From Paenarthrobacter sp. PH39-S1 (GTDB taxonomy: Bacteria > Actinomycetota > Actinomycetes > Actinomycetales > Micrococcaceae), in contig NZ_JASISR010000002.1 in NCBI RefSeq assembly GCF_030063245.1, forward strand, positions 62,001 to 126,000: 64,000 nt of DNA, written 5' to 3'. Positions 10,625-22,058 of this stretch are shown one piece after another. Every line of letters starts with the position of its first letter. The first letter of the stretch is position 1. The notes beneath the pieces were generated by a model. The model worked only from the letters and a program-made list of their open reading frames with translations. It was not told the origin of the DNA and searched no databases. The translations under genes and the position numbers were made by a program.

Positions 10625-11137
10625 GTGACCCCAACAGCGAAGTTCCCCGCGGCTCCCGCACCCGGCGGCGGCCGAGACCGTGCTCAGCACCGCGAATGGA
10701 TGGGTCTGGCGCTGGAACAGGCCGAGCTGGCCGCAGCCACCGCGGACGTGCCGATCGGCGCCGTCGTCCTGGGTCCCGACGGGTCGGTCCTGGGCGCTGG
10801 CTGCAACGAGCGCGTTGCCTTGGAAGATCCGACGGCGCACGCTGAGATGGTCGCGATCCGCGCGGCGGCGCGGGCGCTGGGCTCGTGGCGGCTGGACGGC
10901 TGCACGCTCGCGGTCACGCTGGAACCTTGCGCCATGTGTGCTGGAGCCATTGTGCTGGCCAGGCTCCCCCGAGTGGTCTTCGGGGCCTGGGACGAGAAAG
11001 CCGGTGCGGCCGGATCCGTTTTCGATATTCTGCGCGAACGACGGCTCAATCACTGGGTGGAGGTGTTCCCCGGCGTCCGGGATGGCGAGTGCGCCGCCCT
11101 GCTGCAGGACTTTTTCGCCGGCCGGCGCCTTCCGTAA
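10625..11137 (+). CDS. tadA: tRNA-specific adenosine deaminase
   Basis: 170 residues from a GTG start. It converts A34 to inosine in tRNA-Arg(ACG). The zinc-dependent deaminase signature is complete: HAE (in DPTAHAEMVAI, about 70-80) with the catalytic Glu, and PCAMCAGA (about 101-108). The first 20 residues are a low-complexity Pro/Ala/Gly tail. The antisense strand of its last third is read as the C-terminus of the serine recombinase frame. Confidence 0.95.
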   Translation: MTPTAKFPAAPAPGGGRDRAQHREWMGLALEQAELAAATADVPIGAVVLGPDGSVLGAGCNERVALEDPTAHAEMVAIRAAARALGSWRLDGCTLAVTLEPCAMCAGAIVLARLPRVVFGAWDEKAGAAGSVFDILRERRLNHWVEVFPGVRDGECAALLQDFFAGRRLP

Positions 11138-13026
11138 GTTGTTGCGCCCGAGCCGTTCCCCGCCCACCCGCGACCCTCGACCGGCGCGAACCCGGCCCTG
11201 GACAGCGGCGCTTTTGGGAAGCAGGCCGTCCGTCCGGTAAAGTAACTGCGTTGGTGACGTGTCCGAGCGGCCGAAGGTGCAACACTCGAAATGTTGTTTA
11301 GGTGAGAGCCTAACGTGGGTTCAAATCCCACCGTCACCGCCAAGTTAGTCACGTTGGAACCCCCGGTAAGCGAAAGCTTGCTGGGGGTTTCGTTTTGCCC
11401 GCCTTTGTCCGCCGCTGTGCCGTGAGTTTTCTGCCCGGATGCCTCAGTGGTCATTGAGCTGCTGTTCTGGCCCTGTGTGCGCCCCGTATGGTCAGCTCCA
11501 GCCATCAGGACACCGGCGACCACATCACTCTTCGGAGCCTGTTGGACTTTCGGATGGCTGGTGTTCGCTTCAGCGTCCTCGTCGGCATCAATACGCAGCT
11601 CTTTGAACATGGCCTCATTCAAATTTTGGCGCTCCGTGTCAGTGGCGTGTTTCGCATAGAGCGTGCGTGCATTGCTCAGTAGTCCGAGTACCACTTCAAG
11701 ATGGCCGAGTAGGTTGTTGGTCTGTTGCTGCGCGCTTTGGATCAGGCGAGCGGCGTCGGCCAGCTCGACACTAAGTTTCGCCTGGCGGATCTTGAGATCC
11801 TCGACAGGTAGCGCGTCAGCCATGTAGGCATCAATTAGCTTTTGCTTCTGCCGCTCCAAGCGAATCAGGCGTCGTCGCTGGTCGGCCACGAGCGCATCAG
11901 TTTCATCTTGCTGAGTATCGAATCCGGAAATGATCTCTCGACGTAGCCGTTCAATTTCGGGCTGGCTGAACCGGATATGCTGCCATTCATCTTCGACTAG
12001 CTTCTCGATCTTGCCTACGGAGACGTATGGCAATTTGCAGTCAGTGCGTCCAGTGTGACGTCCGAGGCAGAAGAAATAGGCGTAGGTTCCACCTTTGCCA
12101 CGGGAGTGTCCGTAGCTCATTCGTCCATCGCAGCGATTACAGACCAACGCACCCTTGAGGTAGTGCGTGTGCCGCCAAGCCCGGTCACCCGCGAGGCGCC
12201 GGCCGGCCAGCACGTTCTGGACGGTATGCCAGGTCTCGGGCGAAACCAGGGCTTCGTGTTTGCCCTCGTGGAGAACGCCCTTGAACCTGACTTGCCCCAT
12301 GTAGTACGGATGAGACAAGATGCGGTGGACCTGCGAGTTGTTTAGTGGCGATCCAAGCAGCGTCTTGGTTTTGCGGCTCTTCAATCCACGGGCCTCGAGT
12401 TCATCCCGAATGCTCGAGATACTCCACTTCCCTGTGGCGTAGGCATCGAATGCCCAGATAATATGCGGCGCCCGTTCGGGATCCGGGACAATCCCCTTGA
12501 TCTCTATCCCGTCGACACGGGCAATAGTGTTTAGGTAGCCGAGCGGCGCATAGCCTGGTGTACCGCCACGACGAACCTTCTCGGCCATGCCCTTCTTGGC
12601 CTCAGTACTGAGGTTCTTTGAATAGAACTCGGCAATAACGGCCATGATGCCGTGTGTCAGCGTGCCCGCCGGCGTATCGTCGATCTGCTCCGAAACCGAC
12701 ACGAGGACTGCACCGGCTTTGCGGATAGCCAGCAGGATTGCGACGTCGTCCGCCCGGTCACGCGCCAGCCGATCTACTTTGTGAACGATGACGTAGTCGA
12801 TATCGCCCTCCGCCACGCGGACCAGTAGTGCTTGCAGACCATCTCGGTCGGCCGATCGAGCAGACGCGCCAGCATCTACAAACTCCTCGATTACAACCCC
12901 ACCGAGCTCGCCAGCCTTTCGGATACAGGCGGCACGCTGGGCCGGAATGGAATACCCCTCCGCCTCACCACCCTTGGTCGCTTGTCGAGCGGTCGACACA
13001 CGCAGATAGATAATGGCCGACTTCAT
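11050..13026 (-). CDS. Large serine recombinase (integrase/resolvase type), C-terminus reading through tRNA-Ser
   Basis: Starts at 13026 (MKSAIIYLRVSTARQ), with catalytic Ser11 in YLRVSTARQ. The resolvase domain covers about 1-150 (KVDRLARDRAD). The recombinase domain follows (GYAPLGYL). A zinc ribbon (CNRCDGRM, then two more Cys) comes next, then a coiled-coil of about 70 residues. A real C-terminus is expected near residue 550. Here no stop occurs before the tRNA, so the frame continues antisense through tRNA-Ser (VGFEPTLGS is that tRNA's antisense translation) and tadA to 11050. Such tails are often artefacts of integration beside a tRNA. Longer upstream starts exist. It probably integrates and excises this island. 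Confidence 0.85.
   Translation of the reverse strand: MKSAIIYLRVSTARQATKGGEAEGYSIPAQRAACIRKAGELGGVVIEEFVDAGASARSADRDGLQALLVRVAEGDIDYVIVHKVDRLARDRADDVAILLAIRKAGAVLVSVSEQIDDTPAGTLTHGIMAVIAEFYSKNLSTEAKKGMAEKVRRGGTPGYAPLGYLNTIARVDGIEIKGIVPDPERAPHIIWAFDAYATGKWSISSIRDELEARGLKSRKTKTLLGSPLNNSQVHRILSHPYYMGQVRFKGVLHEGKHEALVSPETWHTVQNVLAGRRLAGDRAWRHTHYLKGALVCNRCDGRMSYGHSRGKGGTYAYFFCLGRHTGRTDCKLPYVSVGKIEKLVEDEWQHIRFSQPEIERLRREIISGFDTQQDETDALVADQRRRLIRLERQKQKLIDAYMADALPVEDLKIRQAKLSVELADAARLIQSAQQQTNNLLGHLEVVLGLLSNARTLYAKHATDTERQNLNEAMFKELRIDADEDAEANTSHPKVQQAPKSDVVAGVLMAGADHTGRTQGQNSSSMTTEASGQKTHGTAADKGGQNETPSKLSLTGGSNVTNLAVTVGFEPTLGSHLNNISSVAPSAARTRHQRSYFTGRTACFPKAPLSRAGFAPVEGRGWAGNGSGATTYGRRRPAKKSCSRAAHSPSRTPGNTSTQ
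11253..11342 (+). tRNA. tRNA-Ser (anticodon CGA)
   Basis: The acceptor GGTGACG pairs with CGTCACC (11332-11338), and the discriminator is G followed by an encoded CCA at 11340-11342. The anticodon loop CTCGAAA lies between CAACA and TGTTG, giving anticodon CGA, which reads UCG. A long variable arm (TAGGTGAGAGCCTA) is typical of tRNA-Ser. The T arm is GTGGGTTCAAATCCCAC. The 3' end is the boundary of the mobile region. Confidence 0.96.
11358..11396 (+). terminator. Rho-independent terminator of tRNA-Ser
   Basis: A hairpin of AACCCCCGGTAAGC and GCTTGCTGGGGGTT (G-U pairs at two places) around a GAAA loop, followed by TCGTTTTG. The interrupted T-run may mark where the mobile element joined the chromosome. 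Confidence 0.75.
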
Positions 13027-13317
13027 CGTTGCAGACTCAGGCTCAAACAACGTCAGGCCGCCGTCAGTAGCTGACAGGTGGCTTGTTTCAAGAGAACGAT
13101 TTGTGGTGGTCTGCGTCCCGGCAATTTTGCCGCCGGGTGAGCTCTTGGGTCTGTGCATGCTCGGACGATAGCTCCGATCCAAAACGTCTTCAAGTGTCCG
13201 ATCGGGTGCAATTAGAGACGATACGACGAGGGGCGTCGGGGGTCGATCGAGCTATTCACGACGAAAAGAATGTGATGCGGAAATTGCAACAGGCTCGTGC
13301 ATGCCGCGTTAGCCAGC

Positions 13318-13371: not shown

Positions 13372-14005
13372 ATGTGGACTCATACAAACACACAATTATC
13401 TGGACGAGAGAATCGACGAGGCTTTACGATCGTCGAACTTCTGATTGTGATTGTTGTCATTGGTATTTTAGCGGCAATTACGATTGTGGCGTATAACGGC
13501 GTACAAGATAGAGCAAAAACAACCAACGCACAGACGACCTCAACCGGTCTCATAAAGAAGATAGAATTGTACAGTGTCGACAAGGGCACTTATCCGACGG
13601 CGCTTGCGCAAATGACAGGTGCGGGTGCTGCGTCTCAACCCTATTACGTGACAAACATTACGTTTATACCTCCATTCCCTGTCGCGACATCTACGCCGAA
13701 CACGCTTACTTATGTCACCTGTGAGTCGGGAACTGGCTACCAGATATTCTACTAGAATTATCAAACAAAGGCGCTGGGCTTCTATACTGGCGGTGCGCAA
13801 ACTAACTGTGCAGCTGCTCCGTAGTCGCACATCGTTTGCGGTATCTTGAAACTTATATTCGTCGCCCGACGGGAAGTCTGCGGTGATTTACTACTCCCTG
13901 CGCGGTAATCAAACTTGCAGCTCGGTTTCTTCTTTGGCTATCACAAGCACAACCTACTAAGCTGACACTACGCAGCGCGTAGGCTCCCTGCCCACTCTTT
14001 CGTAG
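13372..14005 (+). pseudogene. Type IV pilin-like gene, decayed by stop codons and a frameshift
   Basis: The N-terminus has a class III prepilin signal: RRGFTIVELLIVIVVIGIL, cut after Gly, followed by the hydrophobic pilin helix. The open frame ends at TAG 13753-13755 after GYQIFY. Reading past it gives NYQTKALGFYTGGAQTNC and a stop at 13822. One base out of phase, 13856-13957 continues with pilin-like sequence (SPDGKSAVIYYSLRGNQTCS), then TAA, then ADTTQR, where related pilins usually have a Cys. Cysteines fall where pilin D-region disulfides are expected. It is lower in GC than its surroundings. The 127-residue truncated form could still be made, but I read this as a relic. Confidence 0.65.
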
Positions 14006-14260
14006 TCGAGGTGTCAATTTCTAGGCTAGAAGATATGTCGCACGTTCCTGACTCCTCCCAACGGGAGGATCAGTCCCCGACCTTAAAGACTAGCCAACCG
14101 CGTGAACTCGGGCCAATTCGGAGGTTCTTCAGCGACGCGAACGGACGGACGACAGGACGGGTCACTCCAGAGGCGAAACACTACCCGGCGAGCATTTCTT
14201 CGATCCGTTCCCGCAGCTTGTTGTTCCAACCTTGCGTCAGAAGGGCCGCGAAGCGGCAAG

Positions 14261-14306
14261 GCCCCTGCCTCCCTTATGAACAAAGGGAAGTGGGGGTTTT
14301 GCTTTG
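14261..14306 (+). terminator. Rho-independent terminator-like hairpin
   Basis: GCCCCTGCCTCCCTT and AAAGGGAAGTGGGGG form an imperfect stem around ATGAAC, followed by TTTTGCTTTG. The block TGGGGGTTT is shared with the tRNA-Ser terminator at 11382-11390, so it is also a candidate right-hand junction of the element. No gene is visible between the pilin relic and 14433. Confidence 0.5.
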
Positions 14307-14432
14307 TCCCGAAATTAGCCCCTCAGTAACGCAGCGGTAACGAACTTCTCGCGATGCCCTGCGCTCAGTACCCCCGGGAGCAGTGCGCAGTCCGCGATCG
14401 ACTCGCTCACCGAGGCGGCCGAGTCCCTGGTT

Positions 14433-15507
14433 ATGCGAAGGGATAGGCGCATGGCTGCAACGGATCTCGACCCGATTGAGGTCATCGCCCTCGACATGGC
14501 ACGGGCCGACATGCACTACATAGCTACCTCGTTGATCGGCCTTCCGTCTTCCGCGGCCGCCGCGGAGGTCGCCCTTGTCCAGTACAGAGCCATGGCTGCC
14601 TTCGAGGCGCAGCTCCACTTCGAAAAGACCCTTGGCTGGCGCCTGGAGACAAACTGGGACGCTGGCACTGCGAAGGCCGCTCGAATGAGCGGCAAGTTCT
14701 TTGCCGACACCAAGCGAAACCTGCAGGGAGTCGTCACTCATTTCGACGAGCTTCTCCGGGCGAACCACGGCGCTTTCTTCCCGCCTAACCGGCGAGGCCG
14801 ACGCTTCGATTTTCTCCGCGACGACCTGTCGGTTGTCATCCTTGAAGGTAGCCCGTACACGAGCCTTGTCAGCGCGCACTATCTGACGGGGCTCGCGCCT
14901 GAGCAGGTCGGCGACCTTTCAACCGTCGGTCCCGCCATAGGGCGACTTAGCATTGGTGTCGGTAACGTCGCTGCTGCTCTTCTGAATGACTCCGGCATTG
15001 AGTTGCATCAGCACGGACCCGTCCCGCCTTTTAGGTCTAGCGGCAGCCCTCCTGACCGTCCAGAGCGCTTCCTCGTCCGCGGTGCTGAGCGTGTCCCGAT
15101 CACTGTGTGCGTGGTGTGAAGCCGCCGCTCGCCAGCATCGATTCGTCGCCCTCTTCCAGTCCCTGACAGCCCTCGAAATTATGCGAAATGATGGTGGCCG
15201 GCCCTCTCAATCCGCTGAAATGATGGCATTCCTGGACGACCCTGAGTCGGTGTGGGTTCTGGGGCAGTCAAAACTTAGTAACGGGCTGGTTCATCTCGGG
15301 CTTCAGGACATCGCTGCGAGCCTTGGCGCCCGGAGCACAGTCGACGACGCCGTACGTGCCTACACGGGGCAGGACCCCGACGCGGCTGCCGCCCGTGTCG
15401 TGAACCACCTGACCCGATTCGTCGACCTTTTGACGAGATGGATGCTGTCGCCAACCCCCGATGGAAACTTGTTCCTTGCGGCTATGCACCCTGCTCCTCT
15501 GGAATGA
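14433..15507 (+). pseudogene. Unknown protein, apparently split by a frameshift
   Basis: The first frame runs 14433-15119; a likely start is the ATG at 14451 behind GAAGGGAT (MAATDLDPIEVIALDMARAD). The second, one base out of phase, runs to 15507. Coding character passes from one to the other at about 15000-15030: the first ends in a Pro/Arg-rich tail, while the second looks helical (LLGLAAALLTVQ, then RFVALFQSLTALEIMR and VVNHLTRFVDLLTRWML). Joined, they would be about 350 mostly helical residues, with no recognised domain. Coding-like sequence also extends upstream to 14364 without a start codon. A 33-codon frame (15504-15605) overlaps its stop. Confidence 0.5.
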
Positions 15508-16020
15508 TCGCGGGCGCAATCCGAAAACTAGCGGGCGAGATCGACGCACACCTGACTGATCTCGACGAGCGGAGTGTTCAGGGGATCCAATCGTCCAAAT
15601 CATGACGCGATGGCTGCGCGCGCCCGGTGCACGATGTGTGCCGGGACCTGGTCGATTCGAATTTTCTAGCCGTCAATCACATCTGCCCGAAGAGCACCGG
15701 TATCAAGCCGGCGTTCGACCAAAGGCGAACGGCTACCTCAATCACGTCCCGTCCTCCAGCAAGCACGACATGGAACGGAATCGCGGGCCGGTCCCACCAT
15801 TCGCCGATTTCGACCGGGTGTGCCCATGTGTCTGCCGCAGACTTCAGCGAACGTACAAGCCAGATGGCTCGAACATTTGGCCCGCTGACTCTGATCCAAC
15901 ACATGCGCGACACGCATTGAGTCGGGACGCTCACGCGTCCTGTCTGCGGTGCTTGCAAGCTACCCCTCGGTGAAACTCGTGCCCGTAAGCCACGTAGGCG
16001 TACCTCACGACTGGGCTAAT
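15508..16020. other. Island stretch without a convincing gene
   Basis: Short frames overlap on both strands. The most protein-like is on the minus strand at 15677-15958 (it contains EWWDRPAIPFHVVLAGGRDV), but it lacks a believable start and matches no family I know. It may be another decayed gene. Confidence 0.4.
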
Positions 16021-16203
16021 TCAAGGCTCTGGGCTAGTTGATGACCAGGTTGCGCGCCGCCATAATAGATGCTGTTTTGGCCGGACCCCAGTAAGCGTGG
16101 GCCGTCGTCCGATGCTTGATTTGTTGAGGTGGCCGTAGATCGTGGAGCGCGGAACCTGAAGCAGGTCGGCGATGCGTTGGACAGTGTGGTTGCCGGCGCA
16201 CGT
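16021..16203 (-). pseudogene. Resolvase/invertase C-terminal helix-turn-helix remnant
   Basis: The minus strand encodes NHTVQRIADLLQVPRSTIY followed by GHLNKSSIG, the helix-turn-helix at the end of small serine recombinases (resolvase/Hin family). It then runs into unrelated sequence and stops at 16021. The catalytic domain is absent. It is a fragment left by an older transposon or invertase. Confidence 0.65.
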
Positions 16204-16209
16204 ACTCCG

Positions 16210-16245
16210 ACTGACGGCCGCCCCGTTGTCGGGGCGGCCGTCAGT
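16210..16245 (-). terminator. Strong hairpin downstream of the DJ-1/PfpI gene
   Basis: ACTGACGGCCGCCCCG, loop TTGT, then CGGGGCGGCCGTCAGT: a perfect 16-bp stem. It is 24 bases past the stop of the minus-strand DJ-1/PfpI gene. There is a short TTT on the plus side and no T-run on the minus side. Confidence 0.7.
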
Positions 16246-16268
16246 TTCAGTCCGCTGTTGGTGTTAGG

Positions 16269-17048
16269 TTAGTGCTCCGCTTCTGCCGCTGCCTTCTTCT
16301 TGGCGTTTTTCTCGGCGTCCTTCTCGGCGCGCAGAGCCTCCGTCTCGTGCTGTTCCTCGGCTTTTTCCTGGTGGATGACCTCAGCGAAGAGCTTCTCCAT
16401 CTCCTTGGCCACGCCGGCGGCTGAGGCCGGGTTCTGGCCGGTCACCAGGCGGTCGTCAACCACGACCTTCTCCTCAAAGACATCAGCGGAGACGTGGGTG
16501 GCGCCCTGTTCCTCAAGTCGGTCTGCCAAAAAGAACGGGATCACCTTGTCCTTCCCTGTGGCAACCTCCTCGTCGTTGGTGAAGGCGGCCACCTTCCGGC
16601 CCTCGACGAGGCGAAGCCCGTTCTCCAATTCCACTTTCAGCAGGCCGGCCGGTCCGTGGCAGACCGCGCCCACCAAGCCGCCGGCGTTGTAGACGCTGGC
16701 CACCAGATTCTGCAAGCCTTCGCTGTCCGGGAAGTCCCACATGGTGCCGTGGCCGCCCACGAGGAAGACGGCGTCGTACTGGTCGGGATCAACGACGTCG
16801 ACGCGGGCAGTGTTGTAGAGACCGGCGCGCGTGGTCTCGTCCTCCGTGAAGGCGACCTGGATGGGATCTTCTGAGTCCACTTCGTCGCGCGGGGGCTGGC
16901 CGCCTTGGATGGACGCAAAGTCGACGAAATGCCCGGAATCCCTGAAGACCTTCCAGGGATGTGCAGCTTCGGCCACGTTGTAGCCGGTCTTCTCTCCGGT
17001 ATCGCCGATCTCGGAAACGCTGGTCAGTACCATGAGGATTTTCTTCAT
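16269..17048 (-). CDS. DJ-1/PfpI family protein (type 1 glutamine amidotransferase-like)
   Basis: 259 residues from the ATG at 17048, which has AAAGGA upstream. The Hsp31/PfpI-type fold is indicated by VFLVGGHGTMWDFP (about 93-106) and the nucleophile elbow GAVCHGPAGLL with the reactive Cys. A His-containing region and ALNPASA-like segment (TGQNPASAAGVAKEM) follow. Such enzymes act as glyoxalase III, chaperones or deglycases; which applies is unclear. An unusual 35-residue C-terminal tail of Glu, Lys and Ala (EKAEEQHETEALRAEKDA) is predicted to form a charged helix. It appears intact inside the degraded island. Confidence 0.85.
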   Translation of the reverse strand: MKKILMVLTSVSEIGDTGEKTGYNVAEAAHPWKVFRDSGHFVDFASIQGGQPPRDEVDSEDPIQVAFTEDETTRAGLYNTARVDVVDPDQYDAVFLVGGHGTMWDFPDSEGLQNLVASVYNAGGLVGAVCHGPAGLLKVELENGLRLVEGRKVAAFTNDEEVATGKDKVIPFFLADRLEEQGATHVSADVFEEKVVVDDRLVTGQNPASAAGVAKEMEKLFAEVIHQEKAEEQHETEALRAEKDAEKNAKKKAAAEAEH

Positions 17049-17185
17049 GAAGTGTTCCTTTCGTCTAACTTCCACCCTACGCCCAGCCCAATTCGGGCCC
17101 TCCCTCCCCGTCTGAGACGGTGGTAGTCGTCTGCACCTCGAATCACCCGTACGAGGCCTCCTCGGCCGCAGTCGGATATTTATGT

Positions 17186-17518
17186 TTAGCCATACAGGCT
17201 CATCGAACCGAGGTACCCATCGTTACCACGCGGCGTCGGCTTAGCGTGCAACCGAAGTTCGACATTCGGGAAGATGAGTCCAACGTCAGGCAGCCGGCCA
17301 GCTTGCTTGTGATCAACGACTGTCTCGTAGTCATCAATGCTGTAGTAGTCGGTGACCCCGAGGGCTTCAATGCGAGGCTCTGATTCCTCGATGATCCTGA
17401 GGTATTCTTCCCATGCGTCGGCACCAAACTGGTTGTTGAGGGCGGTGCCCGGAGCATGGAGGTGCGGATCCCATCGGCGCCACACTGAACCGCGAGGGTC
17501 CGCGTGAGAGGAGTCGTC
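17186..17518 (-). pseudogene. TrlF-type (PHP-AAA) defence ATPase, N-terminal remnant
   Basis: The minus strand encodes DPRGSVWRRWDPHLHAPGT, then NNQFGADAWEEYLRIIEESE, EALGVTDYYSIDDYE and VGLIFPNVELRL. This matches the conserved start of TrlF family proteins, a PHP-type metal site (DPHLHAPGT) followed in full-length forms by a large AAA-like ATPase. No start codon remains in frame before a stop at 17519, and the match ends near 17220. About 900 residues are therefore missing. TrlF-like proteins occur in anti-phage and toxin islands. Confidence 0.65.
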
Positions 17519-17801
17519 CTACTGCTCTAATTACCACCAGGAAAGGAACCCGATGAAGCGCATCTGGAGTAATTTCTGGCACTGCTCCCGGCTTGGATCC
17601 AAGTCGCGGTCGATTCTGTCACCGGAGCCGGAATGACGGTGGCGTGAATGCCCTCCTCGCCCATCATTGGGCAGTCTGTTGCGCCATGTCCAATCTGCCG
17701 TGCGTTCTGCGACGACCGCACCGATTGTTTACTTCCCGGCTGCGCGGTCCCGACCACTCGCGCCCTAACGGCGCTACGACTCCGATCAGGACATACGGTG
17801 A

Positions 17802-18086
17802 TGGGCAACGCAGGCCGTCGATCTGCGTATTCGCCTCGGTGCAGAAAACATCGAAGAGGATGACGTCGAGGCTGCGATCGGAGCTGACCGCGTTTTCGAC
17901 CTCGTGAATGTGGCCCTGGCGGTGCTGGCTACCATGACGCAGCCTCTCGGCGACGAGTCCGACGAATGGCTGTTCTTGACTCGAATTTATGAGTACCTTG
18001 GAAATCCACAGAGACTAAACGTGAGAGACCGGATGATCGGTCTGGGTATTTACCCGAAGACCCATGGCTCGACGAGACCGGCATGA
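17802..18086 (+). pseudogene. C-terminal remnant of an unknown protein
   Basis: The frame starting just after a TGA at 17799 reads as convincing protein without a usable early start: VDLRIRLGAENIEEDDVEAA, then GADRVFDLVNVALAVLATM and DEWLFLTRIYEYLGNPQR, ending at 18086. Coding-like sequence before the TGA (YDSDQDIR) suggests the stop arose by mutation. A short product from the GTG at 17904 is possible. I do not recognise the family. The sequence from 17519 to 17801 contains no other convincing gene. Confidence 0.45.
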
Positions 18087-18240
18087 GGGCGGTCGCTAGC
18101 GTGAGTCCGCTGGTAGTCCTTCTCTGCCGACACCTACTCGATCCTCATCGGCGGATCTCACAATCGTAAACACGGTCTCAAAGGAAACTGGAGCATCTCT
18201 AATGGGGATGCTCCAAGCACACGGCGGGCAAGGAGAAACA

Positions 18241-21371: not shown

Positions 21372-22058
21372 ATGATGACTCGGGGACATGCGAAGGCACT
21401 GACAGTTCTAACAGCGGCGGCCGCGGTCGCGGGTCTGGCTGGCTGTGGAGGGTCGACGGCGCCGGCGGGACCGTCGTCGACCGGCGCCGGCACGCCGTCG
21501 TCCGCGTCGAGCAGCACCAGCAGCGCCAGCAGCACCGCCGACAGCCCGTCCGTCAGCGCTCCGCCGTCGACTATTCCCTCCCCCAGCACCGAACCATCGA
21601 TCGTTCCCTCTCCCAGCAGCACCGCCGTTGCTGGCCCGGCTCTGTGTACGGCGGCCATGCTGCAGGGCTCCGTTGATGACACCGGCGGCGGGGCGGCGGG
21701 CGGCATCTATATGAAACTGATCCTGCAGAACGCCTCTGCCGCGACCTGCATCCTGGACGGCTATCCCGGCGTTTCCCTGGTCGGCGGCGGCAATGGCACC
21801 CAGCTCGGCGCGCCGGCCAACCGCAACGCTGAACTTCCCTCCGCCGGCCCGATCACGATGGCACCGGGGTCCCGTGCCGCCGCCGTGCTGCATTATACGC
21901 AGGCCGGGAACTACCAGGGCTGCACGCAGGCGCCCGCGGATGGCCTGCGGATTTACCCGCCGAGCGCCACCGACGCGCTGTACATTGCCCACCCGCTCAC
22001 GGCATGCACCGACACGGCCACGGTGCTGATGACAATCGGAGCCTTTCAGAGCCCCTGA
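21372..22058 (+). CDS. DUF4232 domain lipoprotein
   Basis: 228 residues. A lipoprotein signal (LTVLTAAAAVAGLAGC, lipidated Cys about 25) is followed by a 60-residue Ser/Thr/Pro/Ala linker. The C-terminal DUF4232 domain (about 90-228) contains KLILQNASAATCILDGYPGV and ends in LTACTDTATVLMTIGAF. Two Cys pairs probably form disulfides. It is an exported protein anchored to the membrane. Its function is unknown. Two adjacent ATG codons (21372 and 21375) could start it. Confidence 0.82.
   Translation: MMTRGHAKALTVLTAAAAVAGLAGCGGSTAPAGPSSTGAGTPSSASSSTSSASSTADSPSVSAPPSTIPSPSTEPSIVPSPSSTAVAGPALCTAAMLQGSVDDTGGGAAGGIYMKLILQNASAATCILDGYPGVSLVGGGNGTQLGAPANRNAELPSAGPITMAPGSRAAAVLHYTQAGNYQGCTQAPADGLRIYPPSATDALYIAHPLTACTDTATVLMTIGAFQSP

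Follow-up and report, generated by a model that had tools for sequence, protein, structure and literature searches.

The window analysed here is a stretch of 64,000 nucleotides from Paenarthrobacter sp. PH39-S1 (family Micrococcaceae; contig NZ_JASISR010000002.1, positions 62,001 to 126,000), and our subject is the recombinase gene of a small element within it. The element, of ~2.9 kb, sits on the 3' end of a tRNA-Ser gene and extends from a core CCGCCA at 11337-11342 to a core CCGCGA at 14246-14251. Its target gene, tRNA-Ser(CGA), is located at 11253..11342 on the plus strand and forms the left half of the predicted bacterial attachment site, attB. A tadA-like deaminase gene lies at 10625..11137 on the same strand.

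The recombinase is read from the minus strand. The listing of open reading frames (ORFs) gives a frame without stop at 11050-13182, with a probable start at the ATG at 13026, and hence a product of 658 amino acids from 11050-13026. Pfam matched, in this order, Resolvase (PF00239, E = 1.4e-31), Recombinase (PF07508, 4.9e-13) and a Zn-ribbon (PF13408, 3.5e-9); these are serine recombinase domains only, and no tyrosine recombinase domains were found in this protein. This domain content identifies it as a large serine recombinase, or serine integrase. The N-terminal part at 11343..13026 (minus strand), which comprises the three domains and a tail up to the core of the element's own attachment site (attP), is coded by the element itself at this end. 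The remainder, at 11050..11342 (minus strand), is a host-derived C-terminal extension. Here the frame runs antisense through tRNA-Ser, where it reads AVTVGFEPTLGSHLNNISSVAPSAARTRH, and then antisense through tadA, inside which it ends. The other two antisense frames of tRNA-Ser(CGA) are both interrupted by stops.

The initial annotation of this DNA had claimed that no stop separates the recombinase from tRNA-Ser. This is confirmed, since the frame is open across the tRNA into antisense tadA. It had also expected about 100 antisense C-terminal residues. The frame does run there, extending 97 residues past the tRNA 3' end, but its length and its tadA part are accidental, because at least 97 open codons are available at 24% of random minus-strand positions in the window.

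Relatives at tRNA genes

The window was compared with 61 relatives picked on sequence similarity alone, the window being counted once (L plus a number denotes a locus, G plus a number a genome). Left out were L005, in which the gene is truncated by a contig end, and L009, which is the window itself. A second set comprised 23 additional rows, of which 17 came from the class of a Saccharibacteria genome; here L186 repeats L006, and the weakest loci, L211-L217, were left out. Related elements are not independent samples, and phases and ends are uncertain in broken copies.

A tRNA gene faces the end of the recombinase in 58 of the 61 relatives (Ser, Ala, Pro, Arg, Lys, His, Val, Leu, Asn) and in 16 of the 23 further rows, which add Gln and Ile. 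The loci without a facing tRNA are L029, L034 and L038 in the first set and L188, L198, L200, L202, L205, L207 and L210 in the second. Six of these ten (L029, L034, L038, L188, L200, L202) have a GFEP-like terminal peptide despite the missing tRNA, and in L198 the frame runs off its contig. Twenty other serine recombinases were fetched from the window's family; 6 gave no match, and none of the remaining 14 overlaps a tRNA.

The T-loop is read in the same phase in 49 of the 58 and in all 16 of the tRNA-facing relatives. Moreover, 50 of the 58 frames continue past the CCA of the tRNA, and end 6 to 2763 nt beyond it. Six others stop more than 400 nt upstream, these being broken copies, and in two (L033, L035) a stop lies within 10 nt ahead of CCA; the search for stops in these 58 relatives began at the last matching piece. 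Since reading past CCA is a trait common to the relatives, the missing stop before the tRNA in the window is not a matter of chance.

The integrases of L011 and L012 are 98.6% identical over 491 residues, yet they are found at tRNA-Ala(TGC) and tRNA-Lys(TTT), respectively. This points to serine integrases of this family using the ends of several tRNA genes, with one enzyme serving several targets. Our guess is that the T-loop may act as a shared recognition half-site. For annotation, the results imply a warning: recombinase ends that read GFEP are antisense tRNA. In Nocardioides (L003:6136-10512), for instance, the recombinase frame has no stop for 1458 codons and crosses the tRNA into the host sequence, which is probably due to chance at high G+C and is a trap for annotators.

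Attachment sites and the detached segment

The attL core CCGCCA (plus strand) reads TGGCGG on the integrase strand, and the attR core CCGCGA (plus strand) differs from it by one change. An integrase-side arm of attP, GTTGGAAC, is located at 11353..11360 (plus strand), where it codes the S-N of a G-S-N in the integrase tail, and a distal arm, GTTCCAAC, at 14223..14230 (plus strand). In the predicted attP, these arms flank the core TGGCGG, which corresponds to the tRNA end CCGCCA. Inverted arms around a short core shared with attB are the mark of a serine integrase site, and the predicted attP has this form.

Beyond the element, at ~14254-14303, lies sequence matching the terminator of the tRNA itself, and we regard 14255..14303 (plus strand) as the displaced host terminator of tRNA-Ser. 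Because its hairpin is almost a palindrome and was aligned by BLAST on the minus strand, the orientation is taken from the later alignment with empty sites. On the integrase strand, the DNA directly before this terminator reads TCGCGG-CCCTTCTGACGCAAGGTTGGAAC. TGGCGG followed by a like sequence also occurs at far ends in the Saccharibacteria-class genomes G615 (twice), G982 and G664, in L007 (record title Candidatus Saccharibacteria; its second far-end copy is preceded by Ns) and in Nocardioides G608, the genome of L003.

When the window flanks are rejoined, the downstream part matches the empty tRNA sites best exactly at this place in three of four same-genus genomes, whereas in the fourth (G078) the exact place ties with another ~110 nt away. 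Together with the displaced terminator, these empty sites support the earlier view of the tRNA 3' end as the junction of a mobile element. Synteny resumes only at ~18230 relative to two same-genus genomes and at 21651 relative to a third. An element extending to ~18230 was considered and rejected, because the distal arm and displaced terminator are already present at 14223-14303. A search of the window, its own genome and 21 elements (20 testable; in G149 no tRNA was found) for a far junction in the form of a direct repeat of the tRNA 3' end gave nothing convincing, as expected from the short core of serine integrases. In G552 and G036, the far ends were not located by way of empty sites.

The segment at 14181..14249 on the minus strand reads AALLTQGWNNKLRERIEEMLAG up to its stop. 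It is 22 residues long and in frame with the N-terminal part across attP, and would be the detached C-terminus of the integrase. Similar ends follow the junction in G615 (AVSVTHSWNKAAWDQV), G664 (AVTLTRGWNNGAWRQV) and L007 (AVLLTQGWNPGTRSQV). The distal segment continues the integrase frame, next to a matching inverted arm, in all 15 tabulated elements from two phyla, a result that is partly due to selection because far ends were chosen in part for an open frame among the arm matches. The helix-turn-helix (HTH) motif, where present, sets the frame independently, and it agrees with the integrase frame. In a blind check, in which the HTH was located by profile and the best arm was then taken, the expected phase was obtained in 11 of 14 cases. 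Furthermore, the upstream HTH segment lies on the strand of the integrase in 15 of 15 profile matches with E ≤2.1e-9, and does not in one weaker match (E 2.9e-7). In G133 the arms are centred at core+3.5, and in the other 14 of the 15 elements between +5.0 and +6.5.

In most other subfamilies with a located far end, the cut-off part has at least 100 residues with HTH motifs and lies ~5-40 kb away. The distances are 22.1 kb in G133, 20.6 and 24.6 kb in G151, 18.7 and 20.8 kb in G037, 12.9 kb in G040, 40.5 kb in G165, 9.9 kb in G608 and ~5 kb in G756; further segments were located by profile. Pfam recognises HTH_7, the HTH of resolvase, in the detached part of G151 (E 5e-13), G037 (2e-10) and G608 (1.8e-9). 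HTH models other than HTH_7 pass the cut-off in G133, and none does so in G040. The ratio of nonsynonymous to synonymous substitutions (dN/dS) of the detached part was 0.16, 0.33, 0.30, 0.19 and 0.38 in five pairs, three of which share one sequence; a sixth pair of 13 codons, cut out of frame, was left out. The long detached C-part is under purifying selection where tested. An AlphaFold2 model from 18 HTH segments is all-helical (pLDDT 80, pTM 0.41), and the HTH profile matches five solved chains by sequence, 2lvs being the best (E 2.1e-9).

An alternative explanation might be that attP overlaps the gene end by mere chance, with the tail beyond it dispensable and the open frames as leftovers. 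This would fit the short distal parts of 18-31 residues in the window, G008 and several Saccharibacteria copies with an early stop. However, even the short parts have a W-N motif in common, and the long ones combine HTH motifs with dN/dS <0.4. We consider such a chance overlap very improbable.

A terminator-like hairpin is present on the host side of 15 of 21 far ends (z < -2) but in 0 of 21 controls 300 nt further out, which would be expected if it were the old terminator of the tRNA; L253 and L263, whose junction is not cut, were left out of this count. In line with a boundary at this place, eleven Pro-type far ends are 69% alike on the element side (downstream) and 28% on the other (upstream). 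At attL, 51 of 73 cases have a hairpin (z < -2) that lies within codons of the integrase, versus 4 of 73 controls. In the window it occupies 11356..11391 (plus strand; z -4.8), where the tRNA terminator is expected, and is the putative replacement. Given this element-borne hairpin at attL, the tRNA keeps its end and probably gains a new terminator from the element.

The joined form of the gene is represented by L207 (G773, from the class of L007). It has a naturally uncut frame of 780 residues, with Resolvase, Recombinase and Zn-ribbon followed by HTH motifs, and arms GGGGGTTTG and CAAACCCCC (identified by eye) around ATGGTGGAC within its own codons. As judged from this frame, L207 shows the N-part and C-part joined in one protein. 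It is the sole uncut gene among the matches listed in HTH-segment searches of 197 and 392 genomes, 18 and 31 of which had matches. The initial annotation had named relatives away from tRNA genes with the same C-terminal extension as evidence against its view; L207, which has no facing tRNA and is the clearest case, ends in a different, HTH-containing C-terminus and thus does not count against it. A broken relative in G128 (L103/L253) still has the joined junction. The uncut integrase gene of G773 (L235:8389-12146) is on a large contig and adjoins a pilin ORF.

The search for free copies gave five phage matches and one plasmid match with E <1e-20, at most 31.4% identical, and a further listing reached at most 31.7% identity in its best 60 of 216 rows. 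The viral contigs contained no relative.

Proposed mechanism

Taken together, these results suggest a tRNA-targeting large serine integrase that has attP inside its own gene and is split by its own integration, a reading to which we assign a probability of roughly 85%. In the excised circle, the frame would pass attP and continue into the C-terminal segment that lies beyond it, which in the window has 22 residues. Recombination with the CCA end of the tRNA gene would split the integrase gene, such that the N-part remains at attL, running antisense into the tRNA, while the C-part is stranded at attR. The tRNA would stay intact and receive the element-derived hairpin. The split layout, common frame, target site and purifying selection on the long C-part are established from the compared sequences. 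We infer further that the circle forms and that the whole protein would be the integrating form.

In this mechanism, integration swaps the C-terminus of the integrase for antisense tRNA codons, as the initial annotation had supposed, and the swap might tune the activity of the enzyme. The earlier proposal that the C-terminus differs between the integrated and excised states is supported by the in-frame continuation across attP. The related proposal, that the natural stop was replaced on integration, holds insofar as the gene end is exchanged; what is lost, however, is a coding stretch located at the element's far end and not merely a stop. The cut enzyme would presumably be unable to integrate again, and integration would thereby be self-locking, to be undone by the arrival of an intact copy or by a special route of excision. 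Such self-locking is the simplest outcome and is discussed for the archaeal suicidal integrases, for which excision would require a complete integrase gene supplied from outside (PMC8371274).

Several observations weigh against a split integrase. The excised circle itself was not seen. Nine of the 58 tRNA-facing rows (L008, L013, L030, L031, L033, L035, L117, L119, L124) read the T-loop in another phase, several of them being visibly broken. In the blind check, L079, L094 and L076 were out of phase; their arm candidates had 3 mismatches, as did some of the 11 agreeing ones, and in L079 and L094 a better far end picked by hand is in phase. Arms match 7-9 of 9 positions of their own partner (mean 7.8), compared to 6.7 in mixed pairs and 6.1 for shuffled ends in the 15 elements; own partners thus pair just moderately better than the ends of other elements. 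Among 27 elements searched for arms, 6 had clear far ends, L021 a weaker one, and L023, L025 and L027 an HTH segment by profile only. The other 17 yielded no far end by arm or profile search, partly owing to contig ends or to elements that may be longer than the fetched stretch. The far segments of G104 are broken (46 and 63 residues), and Foldseek found nothing significant with the HTH model (best E 0.19). Finally, the detached part in the window has 22 residues without an HTH, and its attR core carries one change. With so short a C-part and a changed core, the window copy may be inactive.

Possibly, the split acts as a switch rather than a lock, where the shortened integrase with its host-coded tail excises, the full protein integrates, and the state of the DNA sets the direction. 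The N-part indeed retains all three recombinase domains, and most relatives keep a frame that enters the tRNA without a stop and in a single phase. Moreover, a directionality factor fused to a serine integrase has been used for control of direction (PMC5737554). Yet, the host-coded tails vary between tRNAs and end at widely different distances past CCA, with little in common beyond the T-loop peptide. We consider such a switch rather unlikely.

A further possibility concerns the detached C-part, which might become a gene of its own once integrated, starting from a CCA-derived NTG codon at attR and coding for a small HTH regulator. The junction codon is NTG in 13 of 15 and 20 of 23 cases (overlapping sets, one member being the uncut L207), the latter comprising TTG 14 times, ATG 3 times and GTG 3 times, and the long C-part is under purifying selection. 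However, NTG follows automatically from the TGG at the core. All DNA upstream of the attR core is host DNA, unrelated between elements, and offers no element promoter or ribosome-binding site. Selection on the C-part is equally accounted for by the joined protein in the circle. A regulator of this kind seems doubtful, somewhat more so than the switch.

Probable exchange between phyla, and known systems

Apart from the integrase gene, the 2.9-kb element has one clear gene, a type IV prepilin-like cargo gene at 13372..13755 on the plus strand, whose sequence resembles Saccharibacteria pilins. It is divergent from the integrase gene, as is the pilin gene in L007, and the two pilins are 44% alike over 129 columns (E 2e-22). 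Its G+C content of 0.46-0.49 is low against the 0.60 to 0.70 of most of the window. This suggests a transfer in which a Saccharibacterium was the donor and an actinobacterium the recipient. When 66 enzymes were placed in a tree, one short row having been left out, the window falls in a group of five (support 99/93) with the Saccharibacteria-class G918, Nocardioides, a Propionibacteriales metagenome-assembled genome and a 5-kb contig labelled Bacteroidetes, which may be misbinned. Besides the window, the next group out, with 13 members, contains 7 rows from Saccharibacteria and 5 with the other label. The labels Saccharibacteria and 'Actinobacteria' (our own label, which includes the Bacteroidetes-labelled contig) require at least 6 changes on this tree, which points to gene traffic between Saccharibacteria and actinobacteria.

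More speculatively, integration might re-program the enzyme in these travelling elements. A detachable DNA-binding domain, needed for attP x attB only, would be cut off, host-coded residues would take its place, and the domain would be restarted from the CCA codon (NTG) as a regulator, one switch thus coupling the state of the DNA, the form of the enzyme and the regulator. We regard this combination as improbable.

Some further features deserve mention. L007:2679-6131, from Saccharibacteria, apparently contains two tandem remnants of the same element, with two distal ends and two integrase tails separated by a run of Ns, and the locus has five pilin genes. G982 (L220/L221, integrase on the minus strand) may hold a minimal element of ~1.8 kb, with little besides the integrase gene between the distal end and tRNA-Ser. 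In the window, ~4 kb past the far end (14304-18230) have no counterpart in the compared same-genus genomes; the ORFs at 14433-15119 and 14986-15507 gave no Pfam match, and the one at 16269-17075 is DJ-1/PfpI-like by eye.

Among known systems, the mycobacterial actinomycete integrative and conjugative elements (AICEs) in tRNA-Leu likewise are actinobacterial elements with a serine recombinase at a tRNA gene. However, the passages on these AICEs, which in 2011 called the use of tRNA genes by serine recombinases rare, mention no cut integrase (PMC3218068). The Int of the filamentous Ralstonia phages phiRSM1 and phiRSM3 is described as a serine recombinase that uses the tRNA-Ser 3' end in reverse orientation, at a core TGGCGGAGAGGGT that starts with TGGCGG, as does the core in the window. 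It differs in being a small resolvase-type enzyme whose attP lies between ORF14 (Int) and ORF15, such that Int is left uncut, whereas here attP is inside the integrase gene (PMC3816273, PMC4471427). Integration-dependent immunity of mycobacteriophages and Gordonia phages is similar in that attP lies within a gene and integration alters the C-terminus of its protein. There, the cut gene encodes the repressor of phages with a tyrosine integrase, and the C-terminus of this repressor is an ssrA-like degradation tag, while here the integrase gene itself is cut (PMC5559632). In the literature searched, with most subscription journals outside its scope, we recognised no serine integrase whose gene is split when its element integrates.

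The closest parallel is provided by the archaeal suicidal integrases of SSV1, pTN3 and pT26-2, in which the recombination site is likewise inside the integrase gene and integration produces an N- and a C-terminal part. These are tyrosine recombinases, and a 2021 review states that self-disrupting recombinases are exclusive to archaea (PMC8371274). In contrast, the present family has a large serine recombinase and bacterial hosts; the named relatives are all bacteria, archaea not having been searched as a group. It also differs in that the catalytic part remains intact and only a C-terminal, often HTH-bearing part is severed. The family is a serine integrase by its domains and suicidal by its predicted layout, a bacterial serine counterpart of the archaeal principle. 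If bacteria do likewise with an unrelated class of enzyme, the layout arose at least twice, and its purpose could be tested in ordinary bacteria.

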